Assembly (NCBI GenBank): GCA_023512475.1
Contig: JAILZL010000003.1
Coordinates: 62,001-126,000, forward strand
Direction of reading: 5' to 3'
DNA from: Syntrophobacterales bacterium
GTDB lineage: Bacteria; Desulfobacterota; Desulfobaccia; Desulfobaccales; 0-14-0-80-60-11
DNA length: 64,000 nucleotides
Part shown: positions 2,198-33,872 of the stretch, piece after piece
Layout: every line of letters begins with the position of its first letter
How positions within the stretch are numbered: position 1 is the first letter of the stretch
Translations under genes and position numbers: made by a program
The notes under the pieces: model-generated
Database searches by the model: none
The model's input: the letters and a program-made list of their open reading frames with translations, nothing else
Told to the model about the DNA's origin: nothing

Positions 2198-3289
2198 TTA
2201 AGGGGCGATGGAACCCAACAAATCCAGACAGTCCGTAACGATCTCCTGTGCCGCCTCGGGCTTGGCCAGGGACCGGCTGGCGGCTTCCATGGCGGCCAGC
2301 CTCCCGGGGTCTTCCAGGAACTGCCCTATCTTATCAGCAAAGACCGCGGCGGTAAAATCTTTATTCACCACCACCTGAGCGGCCCCGGCGGCCTCCAGAT
2401 AGCGGGCGTTGGCCTCCTGGTGGTTGCCCGCGGCGAAGGGGTAGGGGATCAGGACCGCCGCCCGGCCCAGGGCCATGAGCTCCGCCAGGGTGGAGGCCCC
2501 GGCGCGGCAGACCACCAGATGCGCCCGGCCCATGAGGGCGGCCACCTCCGGGGAGAAGGGGGCCACCTCCGCCGCAAAGCCCGCCTCCCGGTAGCCCGCC
2601 GCCACCGCCTCATAGTCCGCCGGGCCGGTCAGATGCAGGAAACGCAGCTCCTCCCTATGGGGCGCCAGCAGGGGCAGGGCGGCCAGGACCTGGAAATTGA
2701 GATGGCGGGCCCCCTGGCTGCCGCCCATGATGAGCACGGTGAAGGGCCGCGGCGGCCGGGGCGGAGGGGGCTGGAAAAACTCCTCCCGGATGGGGTTGCC
2801 GGTCCAGCGGCACTTGTCCGCCGGCAGCCCCCGGGGGTCGGGGAAGGAAAGGAAGATGCGCCGGGCAAAGCGGGCCAGCCGCCGGTTGGTGAGCCCGGGG
2901 ACGGCATTCTGCTCGTGCAGGGCCAGGGGGAGGTGGAGACTGCGGGCGGCCAGGCCCACCGGCGCGGCGGCATACCCTCCCATGCCCAGGACCAGATGCG
3001 GCGCCAGCTCCTTCAGGCGCCGCCGGGCCGCCAGGATGTTGCCCGGCAGGCTCAGCAGGGTGCGGAGCCGGGCCCCCAAGCCCATACCCACCAGGGCCCG
3101 GCTGGCCACCGGCTCCCAGGGGAGGCCGTAGCGGCTGAGGAGCTCCCCCGTCCCCGGCTTGGGGGTGGTGAGGAAGGTGACCCGAAGGCCGCGGCGCAGG
3201 AATTCCCGGGCCACGGCGATGCCCGGAAAGAGGTGGCCGCCGGTGCCGCCGGCCACAATGACCACGTGGAGTTCAGCTACGGGGCACAC
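2198..3289 (-). CDS. murG: UDP-GlcNAc:lipid I transferase MurG
   Basis: Peripheral membrane GT-B glycosyltransferase that adds GlcNAc to lipid I to make lipid II. The visible motifs are the N-terminal G-loop GGTGGHLFPG, the C-domain loop GGSQGARH and the UDP-GlcNAc-binding CRAGASTLAELMA. I prefer the GTG start at 3289 because GGGAGG lies 5 nt upstream and only 11 residues then precede GGTGG, as in characterised MurGs. A GTG at 3313 would add eight residues. It is separated from ftsW by about 1 kb, unusual for a dcw cluster where these genes normally abut. Confidence 0.96.
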   Translation of the reverse strand: MCPVAELHVVIVAGGTGGHLFPGIAVAREFLRRGLRVTFLTTPKPGTGELLSRYGLPWEPVASRALVGMGLGARLRTLLSLPGNILAARRRLKELAPHLVLGMGGYAAAPVGLAARSLHLPLALHEQNAVPGLTNRRLARFARRIFLSFPDPRGLPADKCRWTGNPIREEFFQPPPPRPPRPFTVLIMGGSQGARHLNFQVLAALPLLAPHREELRFLHLTGPADYEAVAAGYREAGFAAEVAPFSPEVAALMGRAHLVVCRAGASTLAELMALGRAAVLIPYPFAAGNHQEANARYLEAAGAAQVVVNKDFTAAVFADKIGQFLEDPGRLAAMEAASRSLAKPEAAQEIVTDCLDLLGSIAP

Positions 3290-3719: not shown

Positions 3720-4013
3720 TCAGCCCGGTCCCCAGGGCTCGGCAGGGAAAGGAGAGGGACAGGGCTCCTCCTCCCGGTCCGGACCCGGGGCGGGAGGGGC
3801 AGGGGACCACATCCGGGCCTGAAGGCGCTGGGCCAGAACCTGGCAGGAGGACAGCACCCGGGGGGATTTTTCCCGGTCATAGAAACAGAGCAGGCCGTCG
3901 TGGCGGCCGGATTCCGCCGCCAGGAAGTCGAACCAGCGCCGGCGTTCCGCCTCCCCGGCCGGCTGCGAGGGCACCCTCGGGCCCTCCCACTCTTTGAGCT
4001 TCGGCTGTGCCAT
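3720..4013 (-). CDS. Hypothetical protein, 97 aa, inside the dcw cluster
   Basis: I do not recognise this protein. Its composition looks protein-like, with a charged N-terminus (MAQPKLKEWEGPRVPS), a middle section RRWFDFLAAESGRHDG followed by LLCFYDREKSPRVLSS, and a proline-rich acidic C-terminus. The ATG at 4013 has GGCGGAGG directly against it and GAGGGG slightly further upstream. A GTG at 4028 in the same frame is an alternative. It is on the same strand as ftsW and murG but isolated from both by non-coding DNA. It could be a lineage-specific small protein or a chance frame in GC-rich DNA. Confidence 0.45.
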   Translation of the reverse strand: MAQPKLKEWEGPRVPSQPAGEAERRRWFDFLAAESGRHDGLLCFYDREKSPRVLSSCQVLAQRLQARMWSPAPPAPGPDREEEPCPSPFPAEPWGPG

Positions 4014-4275
4014 CCTCCGCCCCCTCACAGGGCGCCCCCCGGGGTCCGGCCGGCCGGGAGGGTTCCTCAGCCCCGGCGTCAGATAATCACCGAGTCAATG
4101 ATCAGGAAAAACCTGAGGTCAGTTTGGACAGTTGTGGAGATATTGTTAAGAACAATTTACCTTACGCCTGAGGATGACAGGTGTGGGGTGAGGCCCCACC
4201 GGCGGCCGGCGGGGCCCTCAGAAACGGCCCCCGGGGCCGGTTTCCGGCCGGCCGGGAGCCTGGTTGCCCCTGCCT
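4014..4275. other. Intergenic region with AT-rich island and hairpins downstream of ftsW
   Basis: About 90 bp (4080-4170) is markedly more AT-rich than its surroundings. It holds small inverted repeats: ATTGTT-AAG-AACAAT near 4142-4156, and CAGG-AAAAA-CCTG nearby. Closer to ftsW lie GTGGGG-TGAGG-CCCCAC (4183-4199) and CGGCCC-CCG-GGGCCG (about 4225-4239). On the minus strand the last is followed by TTTC, a weak terminator at best. The region may carry a promoter for the downstream murG-side genes, but no convincing -35/-10 pair was found. Confidence 0.4.
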
Positions 4276-5457
4276 TCAGGTCAGGCGCTCCCCGGACGCC
4301 GCCACCGGCGCGGGAGTGGCCGTCAGGCGACCGACTGCGGCCGCGGGCTGCTTCACCTGGCCGCTGATGTTGAGGAGGATGCCCACCGCCAGGAGATTGG
4401 TGAGGAGGTTGGAGCCGCCGTAGCTGAGAAAGGGCAGGGAAAGGCCTTTGGTGGGGAGAATGCCGGTGACCACCCCCATGTTGATGGCGGCCTGGAGGGT
4501 GATGATCAGGGTGAGCCCCAGGGCCAGATAGGAGCCGAAGGCGTCCGGGGCCCTCAGGCTCAGGCGCAGACCCCGGACCGCCACCAGGGTGAAGAGGGCC
4601 AGCAGCAGCACCACCCCCACCAGGCCCCATTCCTCGCTGTAAATGGCCAGGATGAAGTCGGTGTGGGCGTCCGGGAGGTAAAAGAGCTTGGCCCGGCTTT
4701 GGCCCGGCCCCACCCCGAGGAGCCCGCCGGAACCGATGGCCAGCAGGGACTGTTTGAGCTGGTAGCCCACATCCTGGCCATGTTTCCAGGGGTCCAAAAA
4801 GGAGAGGATGCGGGCGAACTTTTTGGGATCCCGGAGCACCGCCAGGGTCCCCAGCACCAGACCGGCCAGGCTGGCGAAAAAGATATACGTCACCCGGGTG
4901 CCGCCCACCAGCAGCATGGTGAGGGTGATGAGGGCCAGGGTCACCGCGGTGCCGAAGTCCGGCTCCTTGAAAATGAGGGCGATGAACACCCCCGCCACCA
5001 GCATGTGGGGGAGAAAGCCGATGGCGAAGTACTTCATCTTTTCCTGTTTGCGGGCCAGGGAGTAGGCCAGAAAAATCACCATGGCCAGCTTGGCGAACTC
5101 CGAGGGTTGCAGGGTCAGGGGGCCCAGTTTCAGCCAGCGGGCCGCGCCCCTTACTTTGGCCCCGATCCCCGGCACAAAAACGAGGATGAGGCTGATGAGG
5201 GAGAGGAGGAGGATGGGATACACCAGGGGCTTCCACCTTTGGTAGGGAATGCGGCTGGCGCCATAGAGGAGCACCAGTCCCCCCATGGCATACAGGAGCT
5301 GGCGCTTGACGAAGTAGTAGGGGTCCTGGAACTGCGCCATGGCCATGACGGTGCTGGAGGTGAAAACGGTGGTGAGCCCCAGAAGTACCAGCCCCAGGGT
5401 GGCGTAGAGCAGAAGATGGTCCTGCGGGCCGCGGGTGGCATCAGGTTTTCCGGCCAT
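4276..5457 (-). CDS. ftsW: Lipid II glycosyltransferase FtsW (SEDS family)
   Basis: Polytopic SEDS-family peptidoglycan polymerase of the divisome, 393 aa. It shows repeated hydrophobic segments and the signature region TGILPTKGLSLPFLSYGGS near the C-terminus. The start is preceded by GGGAGGAGG three bases upstream and overlaps the end of murD by 17 bp, so the two are probably coupled. murG would normally follow directly, but here about 1 kb intervenes. FtsW is preferred over RodA because of the dcw context. Confidence 0.96.
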   Translation of the reverse strand: MAGKPDATRGPQDHLLLYATLGLVLLGLTTVFTSSTVMAMAQFQDPYYFVKRQLLYAMGGLVLLYGASRIPYQRWKPLVYPILLLSLISLILVFVPGIGAKVRGAARWLKLGPLTLQPSEFAKLAMVIFLAYSLARKQEKMKYFAIGFLPHMLVAGVFIALIFKEPDFGTAVTLALITLTMLLVGGTRVTYIFFASLAGLVLGTLAVLRDPKKFARILSFLDPWKHGQDVGYQLKQSLLAIGSGGLLGVGPGQSRAKLFYLPDAHTDFILAIYSEEWGLVGVVLLLALFTLVAVRGLRLSLRAPDAFGSYLALGLTLIITLQAAINMGVVTGILPTKGLSLPFLSYGGSNLLTNLLAVGILLNISGQVKQPAAAVGRLTATPAPVAASGERLT

Positions 5458-30413: not shown

Positions 30414-31451
30414 TCACGTCGTCGCCAGGCGGAAGCCCAGGATGTCCAGGGTCAGCTCCGGGTTGAGATTGGCGGCCAGATGGCGTTGGGCCCGGGAGAG
30501 GGCCAGGAGCCGGGTGAGCCAGGTCTCCGGCCGGCCGCTCAGGCTCTCCCCCTGAAGCTCCGGCAGCCGGTCCTGGTGCGCCAGGAGCTCCGGAGGCCCC
30601 CCGGCCCGCAGCACCAGGAGGTCCCGGTACCATAAGGCGGCCAGGGTGAGGAAGGTGTCCGCCTCCGCCACACTTTTGGCCAGCCGCTGGGCCCAGGCCA
30701 GGATGTCCGCGGCTCCGCCCCGGGAGAGGGTGTCCAGATCGGAGAGCACCTGATCCCGCTGGGTCAGGAGGACCTCAGGGTCCAGGGCCAGGGCCCGGCC
30801 CAGAGAGCCGCCGCTTAACGCCGCGGCCAGGGCCGCCTGGGCCGGCGGCCGCCCCCGCTTCTCCAGCTCCTGGCGGATGAGGGCCGGGGGCAGGGGGGCA
30901 AAGGTGAGCTTCTGGCAGCGGGACACCAGGGTGGGGAACAGGTCCCCTTCCTGGGCCGCGGCCAGGATGATCAGGTGCCGGGGCGGCGGCTCCTCCAGGG
31001 TCTTTAACAGGGCGTTGGCCGCGGCGTCATTCAGGGCCGCGGCGGGTTTGATGAGGGCCACCCGCCAGCCGCCCCCCACCGGCGGGTAGGCGGTGAGCTG
31101 GCGGAACTCCCGGATCTGCTCGATTTTGATCTGGGGCTGCCGGCCCTCGGAGGTGGGCCGCAGGAGGTAAAAATCCGGGTGTGTGCCCGCCGCCAGCCGC
31201 CGGCAGGAGGGGCACACCCCGCAGGCCTCGCCTTCGGGGGTGGGCCCGGCGCAGTTGAGGCGGGCCGCCAGGGCGGTGGCCGCGGCCGCCCGACCCACGC
31301 CCTCGGGACCCACAAAGAGGTAGGCGTGGGCCAGCCGCCCCTGACTCAGGGCCATGGCAAGATAGCCCAACGCCCGCGCCTGCCCCAGGATGTCCCGGAA
31401 GAACAGGGTGGGGGTGACTTCGCTCTGTGGGCCGCGCTCCTTGTCCGTCAT
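30414..31451 (-). CDS. holB: DNA polymerase III delta-prime subunit HolB
   Basis: 345 aa clamp-loader AAA+ subunit. The Walker A region is VGPEGVGRAAAATALAARL, where the usual GxxGxGKT Lys is changed to Arg, as is common in catalytically inactive delta-prime. The zinc-binding CGVCPSCRRL and the arginine-finger region LVSRCQKLTF are present. It overlaps nothing upstream; a 54-bp gap separates it from the selenoprotein gene end at 31506. Confidence 0.93.
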   Translation of the reverse strand: MTDKERGPQSEVTPTLFFRDILGQARALGYLAMALSQGRLAHAYLFVGPEGVGRAAAATALAARLNCAGPTPEGEACGVCPSCRRLAAGTHPDFYLLRPTSEGRQPQIKIEQIREFRQLTAYPPVGGGWRVALIKPAAALNDAAANALLKTLEEPPPRHLIILAAAQEGDLFPTLVSRCQKLTFAPLPPALIRQELEKRGRPPAQAALAAALSGGSLGRALALDPEVLLTQRDQVLSDLDTLSRGGAADILAWAQRLAKSVAEADTFLTLAALWYRDLLVLRAGGPPELLAHQDRLPELQGESLSGRPETWLTRLLALSRAQRHLAANLNPELTLDILGFRLATT

Positions 31452-31505: not shown

Positions 31506-32258
31506 TTACCCCCTGGGCTTGCGGCCCCGGAGCAGGACCCCCCGGGTGAGGGGGGAGCTGTTCAGGCCGGTTGGCCCCACCAATTCCGCCTCATGAAAAC
31601 CCGCTTGTCGCATCAGGGCCAGGAAAACCTTTCCCGGCACAGCCCCGCCCAGTCAGCGGGCCCAGTTTGCCACCCGCGCCTCCGGGCCGGGGGGCGGCTC
31701 TCCGGTGAGCACCTGGTCGGCCACCCAAAACCAGCTTCCCGGTTTCAGGACCCTGAAGACCTCGGCCAAGGCCGTGACCTTGTCCACCACCAGGTTGAAG
31801 GCGCCGTTGGAGATGACCGCGTCAAAGAGGTTCTCCGGGACGGGCAGCCGGGAGGCGGTGGCCACCAGGAAGAGGAGATTTCCGAGACCCATGAGCCGGG
31901 CGTTCTCCCGGGCCCGGGCCAGCATTTCGGGAACCAGGTCGATGCCGATGACCCTCCCTTGGGGGCCTGTCAGGGTGGCTGCCAGGATGGCGTCCACCCC
32001 GGCGCCGCAGCCCAGATCAAGAACTGTATCCCCGCTTGAGATACGCCCCAGGGAGAAGGGATTGCCCACCCCGCAGAAGGACCCGGCCACCTGCTCTGGG
32101 AGTTCCCGGAGAAAAGGGGCGGGGTAATGCAGGGCCTCCAATCCGGCCCGGCCGGTGGGGTACCTGAAGCATCCCGCCGGGCTGACCGCCACCTGGGCGT
32201 ATTTCTGCCGGATGGCGGCGGCGATGCGCTCCTCGTCCTCCCGACTCAGCTTCTCCAT
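31506..32258 (-). CDS. ArsM-like SAM methyltransferase, selenoprotein (UGA at 31653-31655 read as Sec)
   Basis: SAM-dependent methyltransferase of 250 aa when the in-frame TGA at codon 202 is read as selenocysteine. Motif I is LDLGCGAGVDAI (81-92). Up to the TGA the sequence tracks arsenite methyltransferase (ArsM), and the frame continues after it with LGGAVPGKVFLALMRQAGF to a TAA at 31506. The ArsM alignment places a catalytic Cys (WxxC-xGGA) exactly at the UGA. A SECIS-like hairpin follows. ArsM's Cys in SNCVxNL is Gly152 here, while Cys62 in SFCGVGNP is kept. I recall a methyltransferase selenoprotein family called MduS but cannot confirm membership. Automatic annotation would stop at 31653. 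Confidence 0.85.
31618..31655 (-). promoter_or_regulatory. Bacterial SECIS element with its UGA codon
   Basis: On the minus strand the UGA (31655-31653) is followed 15 nt later by a 9-bp stem (31618-31638), G-CC-G-GG-AAA pairing with UUU-CC-U-GG-C, including one G-U pair. The apical loop is GGU. E. coli fdhF SECIS has a GGU loop at nearly the same distance from UGA. The stem is itself coding. Confidence 0.82.
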
Positions 32259-32321: not shown

Positions 32322-33872
32322 TCATTCCCATTCGATGGTGGCCGGGGGCTTGCTGGAGATGTCATAGACCACCCGGTTGACCCCCTTCACCTCATTGATG
32401 AGGCGGTTGGCCAGGTGGGCCAGGAATTCGTGGGGCAGGCGGGTCCAGTCCGCGGTCATGGCGTCGGTGGAGTCCACCACCCGGAGGGCCACCACGTGCT
32501 CGTAAGTGCGCTCATCCCCCATCACCCCCACGGTGCGCACGGGCAAGAGCACCGCGAAGGCCTGCCAGACCTTGCGGTACCAGCCGGTGCGCTGCATCTC
32601 CTCCTGGACGATGGCGTCGGCCTCCCGGAGGATGGCCAGGCGCTCCGGGGTCACCTCCCCCAGGATGCGGATGGCCAGGCCCGGCCCGGGGAAGGGATGC
32701 CGCCACAGCAGGGAGTCGGGCAGGCCCAGCTCCTTCCCCACCTCCCGGACCTCATCCTTGAAGAGCTCCCGCAGGGGCTCGATCAGCTGAAGGGGCATAA
32801 CCTGGGGCAGGGCCCCCACATTGTGATGCGTCTTGATGGTGGCGGAGGGGCCTTTGAAGGAGACGCTCTCGATGACGTCCGGGTAGAGGGTCCCCTGGGC
32901 CAGATATCTGACCCCGCCGATTTTTCCGGCCTCCTCGGCGAAGACCTCGATGAACTCCCGGCCGATGCGCCGGCGCTTCTCTTCGGGGTCGGTCACCCCT
33001 TTCAGCAGGGCCAGGAAGCGCTCGCTGGCATCCACATAGATGAGGTTCAGGTGCTCCCGGTCCCGGAAGAGGCGCACCACCTCCTCGGCCTCGCCTTTGC
33101 GGAGCAGACCGTTGTTCACAAAGATGCAGGTGAGGCGGTCTCCCACCGCCCGGTGCACCAGCACCGCGGTGACCGAGGAGTCCACCCCGCCGGAGAGGGC
33201 GCAGATGACCCGCTCTGCGGGCCCCACCTGCCGGCGGATGGCCTGGACCGTGGCCTCGATGAAGGAGTGCATGGTCCACAGGCCCGAGAGCCGGCAGATG
33301 CGGAAAAGGAAATTTTTCAGAATCTCCCGGCCGTGGGGGGTGTGCTTCACCTCGGGGTGGAACTGCACCCCGTACAGCCGGCGGCGCACGTCCCGGATGG
33401 CCCCCACTGGGGAGGCGTCGCTGCCGCCGAGGATCTCAAAGCCCGGCGGCGGCTTTTCCACCAGGTCGCCGTGGCTCATCCAGACGGTCTCCTGGGGGGC
33501 CAGCCCGTGGAAGAGATCGTCGAAATAATGGATGGTGAAGGTCTTGCGGCCGTATTCCCGGCTGGCGGCGGGCACCACCGTCCCCCCCAGCATATGGCTC
33601 AGAAGCTGCAGGCCGTAGCAGATGCCCAGAACCGGCACCCCCAGCTCCAGGACCCGGGGGTCCAGCCGGGGGGCGTCCCCTTCATAGACGCTCCGGGGGC
33701 CCCCGGAGAGGATGATGCCCTGGGGCGCGAATTTCCGGATCTCCTCCAGGGGCATGGAGTAGGGGTGGATCTCACAATACACCCTGAGCTCCCGCACCCG
33801 CCGGGCGATGAGTTGGGTGTACTGGGAGCCGAAGTCCAAAATGAGGATCTTTTCCTGGTGGGGATCGGGCAT
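32322..33872 (-). CDS. guaA: GMP synthase (glutamine-hydrolysing)
   Basis: Converts XMP to GMP with ATP and glutamine, 516 aa. The N-terminal class I amidotransferase has the nucleophile in [16 protein letters not shown] and the His/Glu in [11 protein letters not shown]. The ATP-pyrophosphatase domain has the PP-loop [14 protein letters not shown], and the C-terminal dimerisation domain ends in [15 protein letters not shown] lies 7 nt before the ATG, and a strong promoter is present about 60 bp upstream. No purine riboswitch was recognised in the short leader. Confidence 0.97.

Follow-up and report, generated by a model that had tools for sequence, protein, structure and literature searches.

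An unannotated ArsM-like methyltransferase gene with an in-frame UGA codon and a SECIS-type hairpin

The window analyzed here, a 64,000-nucleotide stretch of DNA from a Syntrophobacterales bacterium, carries on its minus strand a methyltransferase reading frame that meets a TGA at codon 202 and then continues through 48 sense codons (203–250) to a TAA. The gene lies between guaA and a holB-like gene, and its features are collected in Table 1; the coordinates that an earlier, sequence-only annotation (hereafter the first-pass annotation) had assigned to the frame, the TGA and the TAA are all correct. No ars gene is found among the neighbors of the methyltransferase gene in the window, and no partner gene is shared by the Sec methyltransferase genes of the genomes compared, where the neighbors differ; gene context, considered as a clue to the substrate, yielded none.

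Table 1. Features of the methyltransferase locus (window coordinates).
Feature	Position	Strand	Remarks
Methyltransferase readthrough CDS, 250 aa	31506..32258	-	Start ATG 32258, stop TAA 31508-31506
In-frame TGA, predicted selenocysteine (Sec) codon 202, at the ArsM Cys224 position	31653..31655	-	TGA in all same-family copies; C/U in 49/49 aligned proteins
SECIS hairpin, 9 bp, GGU loop 31629-31627	31618..31638	-	23 nt past the UGA
SAM-binding motif VLDLGCGAG, residues 79-87	31998..32024	-	Pfam Methyltransf_31 7.6e-29, and alignment
Gly152 codon, replacing arsenic ligand Cys174 of CmArsM (ISNG vs ISNC)	31803..31805	-	phmmer alignment to 5evj
Cys62 codon (FCGVGNP), two residues ahead of the CmArsM Cys72 site	32073..32075	-	Constant only in the window's branch
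guaA (GMP synthase), upstream neighbor	32322..33872	-	Ordinary TGA stop
holB-like (DNA polymerase III delta'), downstream neighbor	30414..31451	-	

The in-frame TGA is conserved well beyond the window. A search of 59 related genomes returned 23 matches with a single in-frame TGA, one of them the window; the TGA is present in every match with more than 48% identity and in all 22 same-family matches, i.e., the window and 21 other copies. Sec-type homologues with an in-frame TGA occur in Actinomycetota, Chloroflexota, Acidobacteriota, Planctomycetota, Gemmatimonadota, Nitrospirota and other phyla, and homologues from Pseudomonadota and Campylobacterota carry Cys at the orthologous place. All 49 aligned proteins have either Sec or Cys, and no third residue, at position 202. 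In the segment encoded past the UGA, identity to the three nearest relatives is 63–67% and dN is far smaller than dS (0.27 and 0.97, respectively, against the close relative L016).

The UGA is followed, after 23 nt, by a hairpin with a 9-bp stem and a three-nucleotide GGU loop (–11.8 kcal/mol), which falls within the limits published for bacterial SECIS elements: a stem of 4–16 bp, a loop of 3–9 nt with G in the first two positions, a distance of 16–37 nt from the UGA, and a minimum free energy of –7.5 or below (PMC13188914). Loose bacterial-SECIS rules are satisfied after 434 of 2448 codon positions (18%) in the neighboring genes, and an equally stable hairpin appeared in 1111 of 20000 synonymous randomizations (5.6%). 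We rejected such rules as proof of recoding since they are satisfied too often in GC-rich DNA, and in sequence of this kind the hairpin taken alone is weak evidence.

It is the conservation of the hairpin, beyond its mere presence, that surpasses chance. When scanned with the demand for a G within the first two loop positions, 18 of 19 fetched close copies have the hairpin at a spacing of 23 nt, and the remaining copy at 22 nt. Over an alignment of 20 sequences, standard pairs fill 95.6% of pair cells and three pairs have changed on both sides, with the loop-closing pair present as AU (11), GC (7) or CG (1). The covariation score is higher than in all 500 shuffles, and six controls with a slid register scored far lower on cells paired. 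Across the hairpin codons, synonymous codon identity reaches 0.75, compared with 0.55 for codons 1–201, and the 9-codon windows of highest synonymous conservation in the whole gene all lie around the UGA and the hairpin. Cys-bearing paralogues have no such hairpin; the Sec homologues fetched from other phyla within the Gly152 clade (see below) have a comparable one 17–23 nt after the UGA, with one exception (L084). A search of Rfam gave only sub-threshold hits and no SECIS-type match.

The window genome (2.78 Mb in 73 contigs, approximately 100% complete) encodes the complete machinery for Sec insertion: selA (contig C14, 620 bits), selB (C17, 361 bits), a tRNA-Sec (selC) with anticodon tca (C49, 73.8 bits), and selD (C32, 364 bits). 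The selD gene (L054, G000:C32:44857-45774) has an in-frame TGA of its own, and selenophosphate synthetase is apparently a selenoprotein here too. Among relatives, presence and absence of selB against that of the Sec gene is uninformative, with selB found nearly everywhere. As guaA ends in TGA, UGA otherwise acts as a stop in this genome.

Based on the conservation of the UGA and of the SECIS, the Sec/Cys exchange, the presence of the sel genes, and the fold and clade of the protein, we propose that the UGA at 31655–31653 is recoded as Sec, and that this is a genuine selenoprotein gene (probability about 0.95). The first-pass annotation had come to the same view, an unannotated ArsM-like selenoprotein with in-frame UGA and SECIS, which is well supported: the hairpin it described (31638–31618) is real, the homology it saw past the UGA is borne out and belongs to the predicted fold, and of the findings that it had named as grounds for abandoning the idea, a genome devoid of selB and selC, or a site devoid of Cys or Sec homologues and of downstream conservation, none was encountered.

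Two accounts would dispense with Sec. If the UGA were a true stop, the product would be a truncated methyltransferase of 201 residues and the remaining codons a relic, in line with where mechanical ORF calling ends the gene and with the normal use of UGA in guaA. We consider this highly improbable, given that purifying selection persists past the UGA, that many species have kept both the codon and an open frame beyond it, that the hairpin is conserved, and that truncation would cost two strands of the predicted sheet. Alternatively, another amino acid might be inserted by near-cognate readthrough or through a change of the code; the frame is open whatever the UGA encodes, but the termination of guaA at TGA, the complete Sec machinery, the SECIS-type hairpin, and the fact that Cys is the sole exchange partner at the site in 49 sequences leave very little credence for such a reading. 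With recoding as Sec, SelB and Sec-tRNA(UCA) would enable the ribosome to decode the UGA, directed by the GG-loop hairpin downstream, and the readthrough product would be a 250-residue SAM-dependent methyltransferase of the ArsM fold.

The AlphaFold2 model of this product (alignment of 49 sequences) has a pLDDT of 94.9 over 250 residues, and two strands encoded past the UGA, 222–229 and 238–246, lie within the predicted fold. The best matches among solved folds are CmArsM and CrArsM (Z-scores 25.2 to 23.6), with CmArsM 4fr0 as the top match (Z-score 25.2, rmsd 2.3, 207 aligned residues), and as judged by this comparison the predicted model has the ArsM fold. In the phmmer alignment to CrArsM (5evj), Sec202 is placed opposite the Cys of GECLAGAL, Gly152 opposite the Cys of VISNC, and Val64 opposite the Cys of GCGNP, which we take to be Cys224, Cys174 and Cys72 in CmArsM numbering, from published positions and general knowledge of that structure. 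The window protein, with Val64, Gly152 and Sec202, thus retains one of the three positions, and that as Sec. All three cysteines are reported to be conserved in ArsM (PMC5552862), and a single-cysteine ArsM from Thermus methylates arsenite (PMC8649762). Another cysteine, Cys62, does not vary within the window's branch, while most other branches have Ala there; judged from the alignment, a Cys62–Sec202 pair could be relevant solely in that branch. PADLOC returned a generic methyltransferase-domain match only (mad2, 83 bits).

The best NCBIfam matches cover the whole 250 residues, and each is below its cut-off: NF041537 (351.6 bits over residues 3–248, cut-off 510), NF041536 (339.6 bits, cut-off 575) and NF047649 (311.3 bits, cut-off 460). 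NF041537 and NF041536 describe arsenite methyltransferase/AhpD and arsenite methyltransferase/DUF2284 domain selenoproteins, respectively, and are listed in a review (PMC13188914, citing Haft and Tolstoy 2025). They share with the window protein the same methyltransferase domain end to end (residues 3–249) and the same UxxG Sec site, and the two closest sequences (L016 and L017, 64–66% identity) carry a DUF2284 domain; however, both families have a second domain and a second Sec, which the window protein lacks. Likewise, NF047649, the methyltransferase/UXPK-star double selenoprotein, has the domain and the Sec site in common with the window protein, and tails of its kind (e.g., GGA-U-APK) follow the domain in many same-family genomes, whereas the UXPK tail with the second Sec is missing here. 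A split second-domain partner elsewhere in the genome was considered and rejected: no DUF2284 match is found anywhere in the window genome, and its one CMD/AhpD protein is on another contig and has no in-frame stop. The first-pass annotation had suggested MduS as a family that might already cover the gene. In MduS, too, Sec occurs together with a SAM methyltransferase domain (PF13649 type), but the family has a CxxU motif and two Sec (PMC13188914) in place of UxxG and one, and we rejected it on motif and Sec count. The window protein is a standalone, single-Sec relative of catalogued selenoproteins, below every curated cut-off.

The arsenite methyltransferase model NF008823 divides these proteins further. 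The window protein fails it (175.2 bits, cut-off 263), as do eight tested Sec members and one Cys member (L068) of the Gly152 clade. It is passed at 297 bits by an ArsM selenoprotein from Clostridium senegalense (L089), a protein of the type of WP_011987699 (Fomenko et al. 2007, cited in PMC13188914). Similar to the window protein, L089 belongs to the ArsM family and has Sec at the Cys224 position within a UxxG motif, but it keeps the ISNC cysteine where the window protein has Gly, and it falls in another clade. In a tree of the 49 proteins, a split with 99/96 support divides all 38 rows with Gly152 (33 Sec, 5 Cys) from all 11 rows with Cys152, and L089 is the single Sec row among the latter. 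Since L089 keeps ISNC, passes NF008823 and lies outside the Gly152 clade, its Sec probably arose separately, and from the alignment and tree, Sec at the site equivalent to ArsM Cys224 was probably gained at least twice. The L089 gene itself (4001-4684) presents an ArsM with both Sec and the ISNC cysteine, apparently an independent gain of Sec.

How far the ArsM-like label carries over to function is a separate matter: fold and ancestry speak for it, while the missing arsenic ligand Cys174 and the failed NF008823 model speak against it. The protein could be an ordinary ArsM arsenite methyltransferase with Sec at Cys224, serving arsenic detoxification. Its nearest solved folds are ArsM enzymes, its Sec occupies a catalytic Cys site, the window genome encodes an ACR3 arsenite pump, and the one-cysteine Thermus enzyme is active on arsenite (PMC8649762). 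Still, we regard an ordinary ArsM as unlikely: Gly and Val replace two of the conserved ArsM cysteines (PMC5552862), the Clostridium selenoprotein passes the arsenite methyltransferase model that the window protein fails, the clade is separate and well supported, and no ars gene is adjacent. In particular, the replacement of Cys174 by Gly152 suggests that the standard two-thiol arsenite mechanism is not used. SAM-dependent methyl transfer is likely, and we lean, with less assurance, towards Sec202 as a ligand or nucleophile for a soft substrate, with arsenite itself unlikely to be that substrate. The selenolate may bind such a substrate, whether a metalloid, a metal or a chalcogen species, or it may serve as nucleophile or redox group beside the SAM methyl. 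We give an even chance to a broader proposal, namely that (i) the Gly152 clade forms a selenoenzyme family of its own that acts on another substrate and is misnamed as arsenite methyltransferase in current models, (ii) the double-Sec fusions are a derived subset of it, and (iii) one selenolate replaces two or three ArsM thiols.

Selenoproteins of the ArsM-methyltransferase kind are already catalogued, and what is added here is the standalone single-Sec form and the Gly152/Sec202 signature. Gene finders would truncate the protein after residue 201, and none of the curated selenoprotein models names it; hence, single-domain forms across many phyla probably carry wrong annotations. With the Gly152/Sec202 pairing, such enzymes can be told from true ArsM by a simple sequence test, and the pairing argues against giving them the arsenite methyltransferase name without a test. 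It also raises the question of which substrate is methylated by an ArsM-fold enzyme with one selenolate.

The window protein and its congener L018 consist of the methyltransferase domain alone, and their sisters in the tree are the DUF2284 fusions L016 and L017; in other genomes of the family the domain is followed by a UXPK-like tail or an AhpD-like domain, as assigned by eye from the tails. One relative (G013) has three Sec methyltransferase copies (L016, L146, L149). Within the genus, the gene again sits between guaA and holB in one genome (G001), and another (G002; L151/L155) lacks it and has a different AT-rich stretch between guaA and holB; with one of three same-genus genomes devoid of it, the methyltransferase gene appears dispensable. 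In G001 (L154, about 2270-3010; L150), the 3' end of guaA recurs after the methyltransferase gene as an 87-bp repeat (98.9%). Between this repeat and holB comes a stretch of about 26% GC that holds a membrane-protein-like ORF of 187 residues. This arrangement resembles an insertion at the 3' end of guaA, and the guaA–holB interval seems liable to insertion and loss. Among Cys orthologues, a 453-residue protein from Sulfurimonas (L072, 3971-5332; also L080) has an apparent second methyltransferase domain, in two stretches, and in L072 its gene comes directly after a DsbD-thioredoxin gene. A second, different methyltransferase gene lies near the Sec or Cys methyltransferase gene at two further loci (L074, 4978-5589; L067, 3232-3918).
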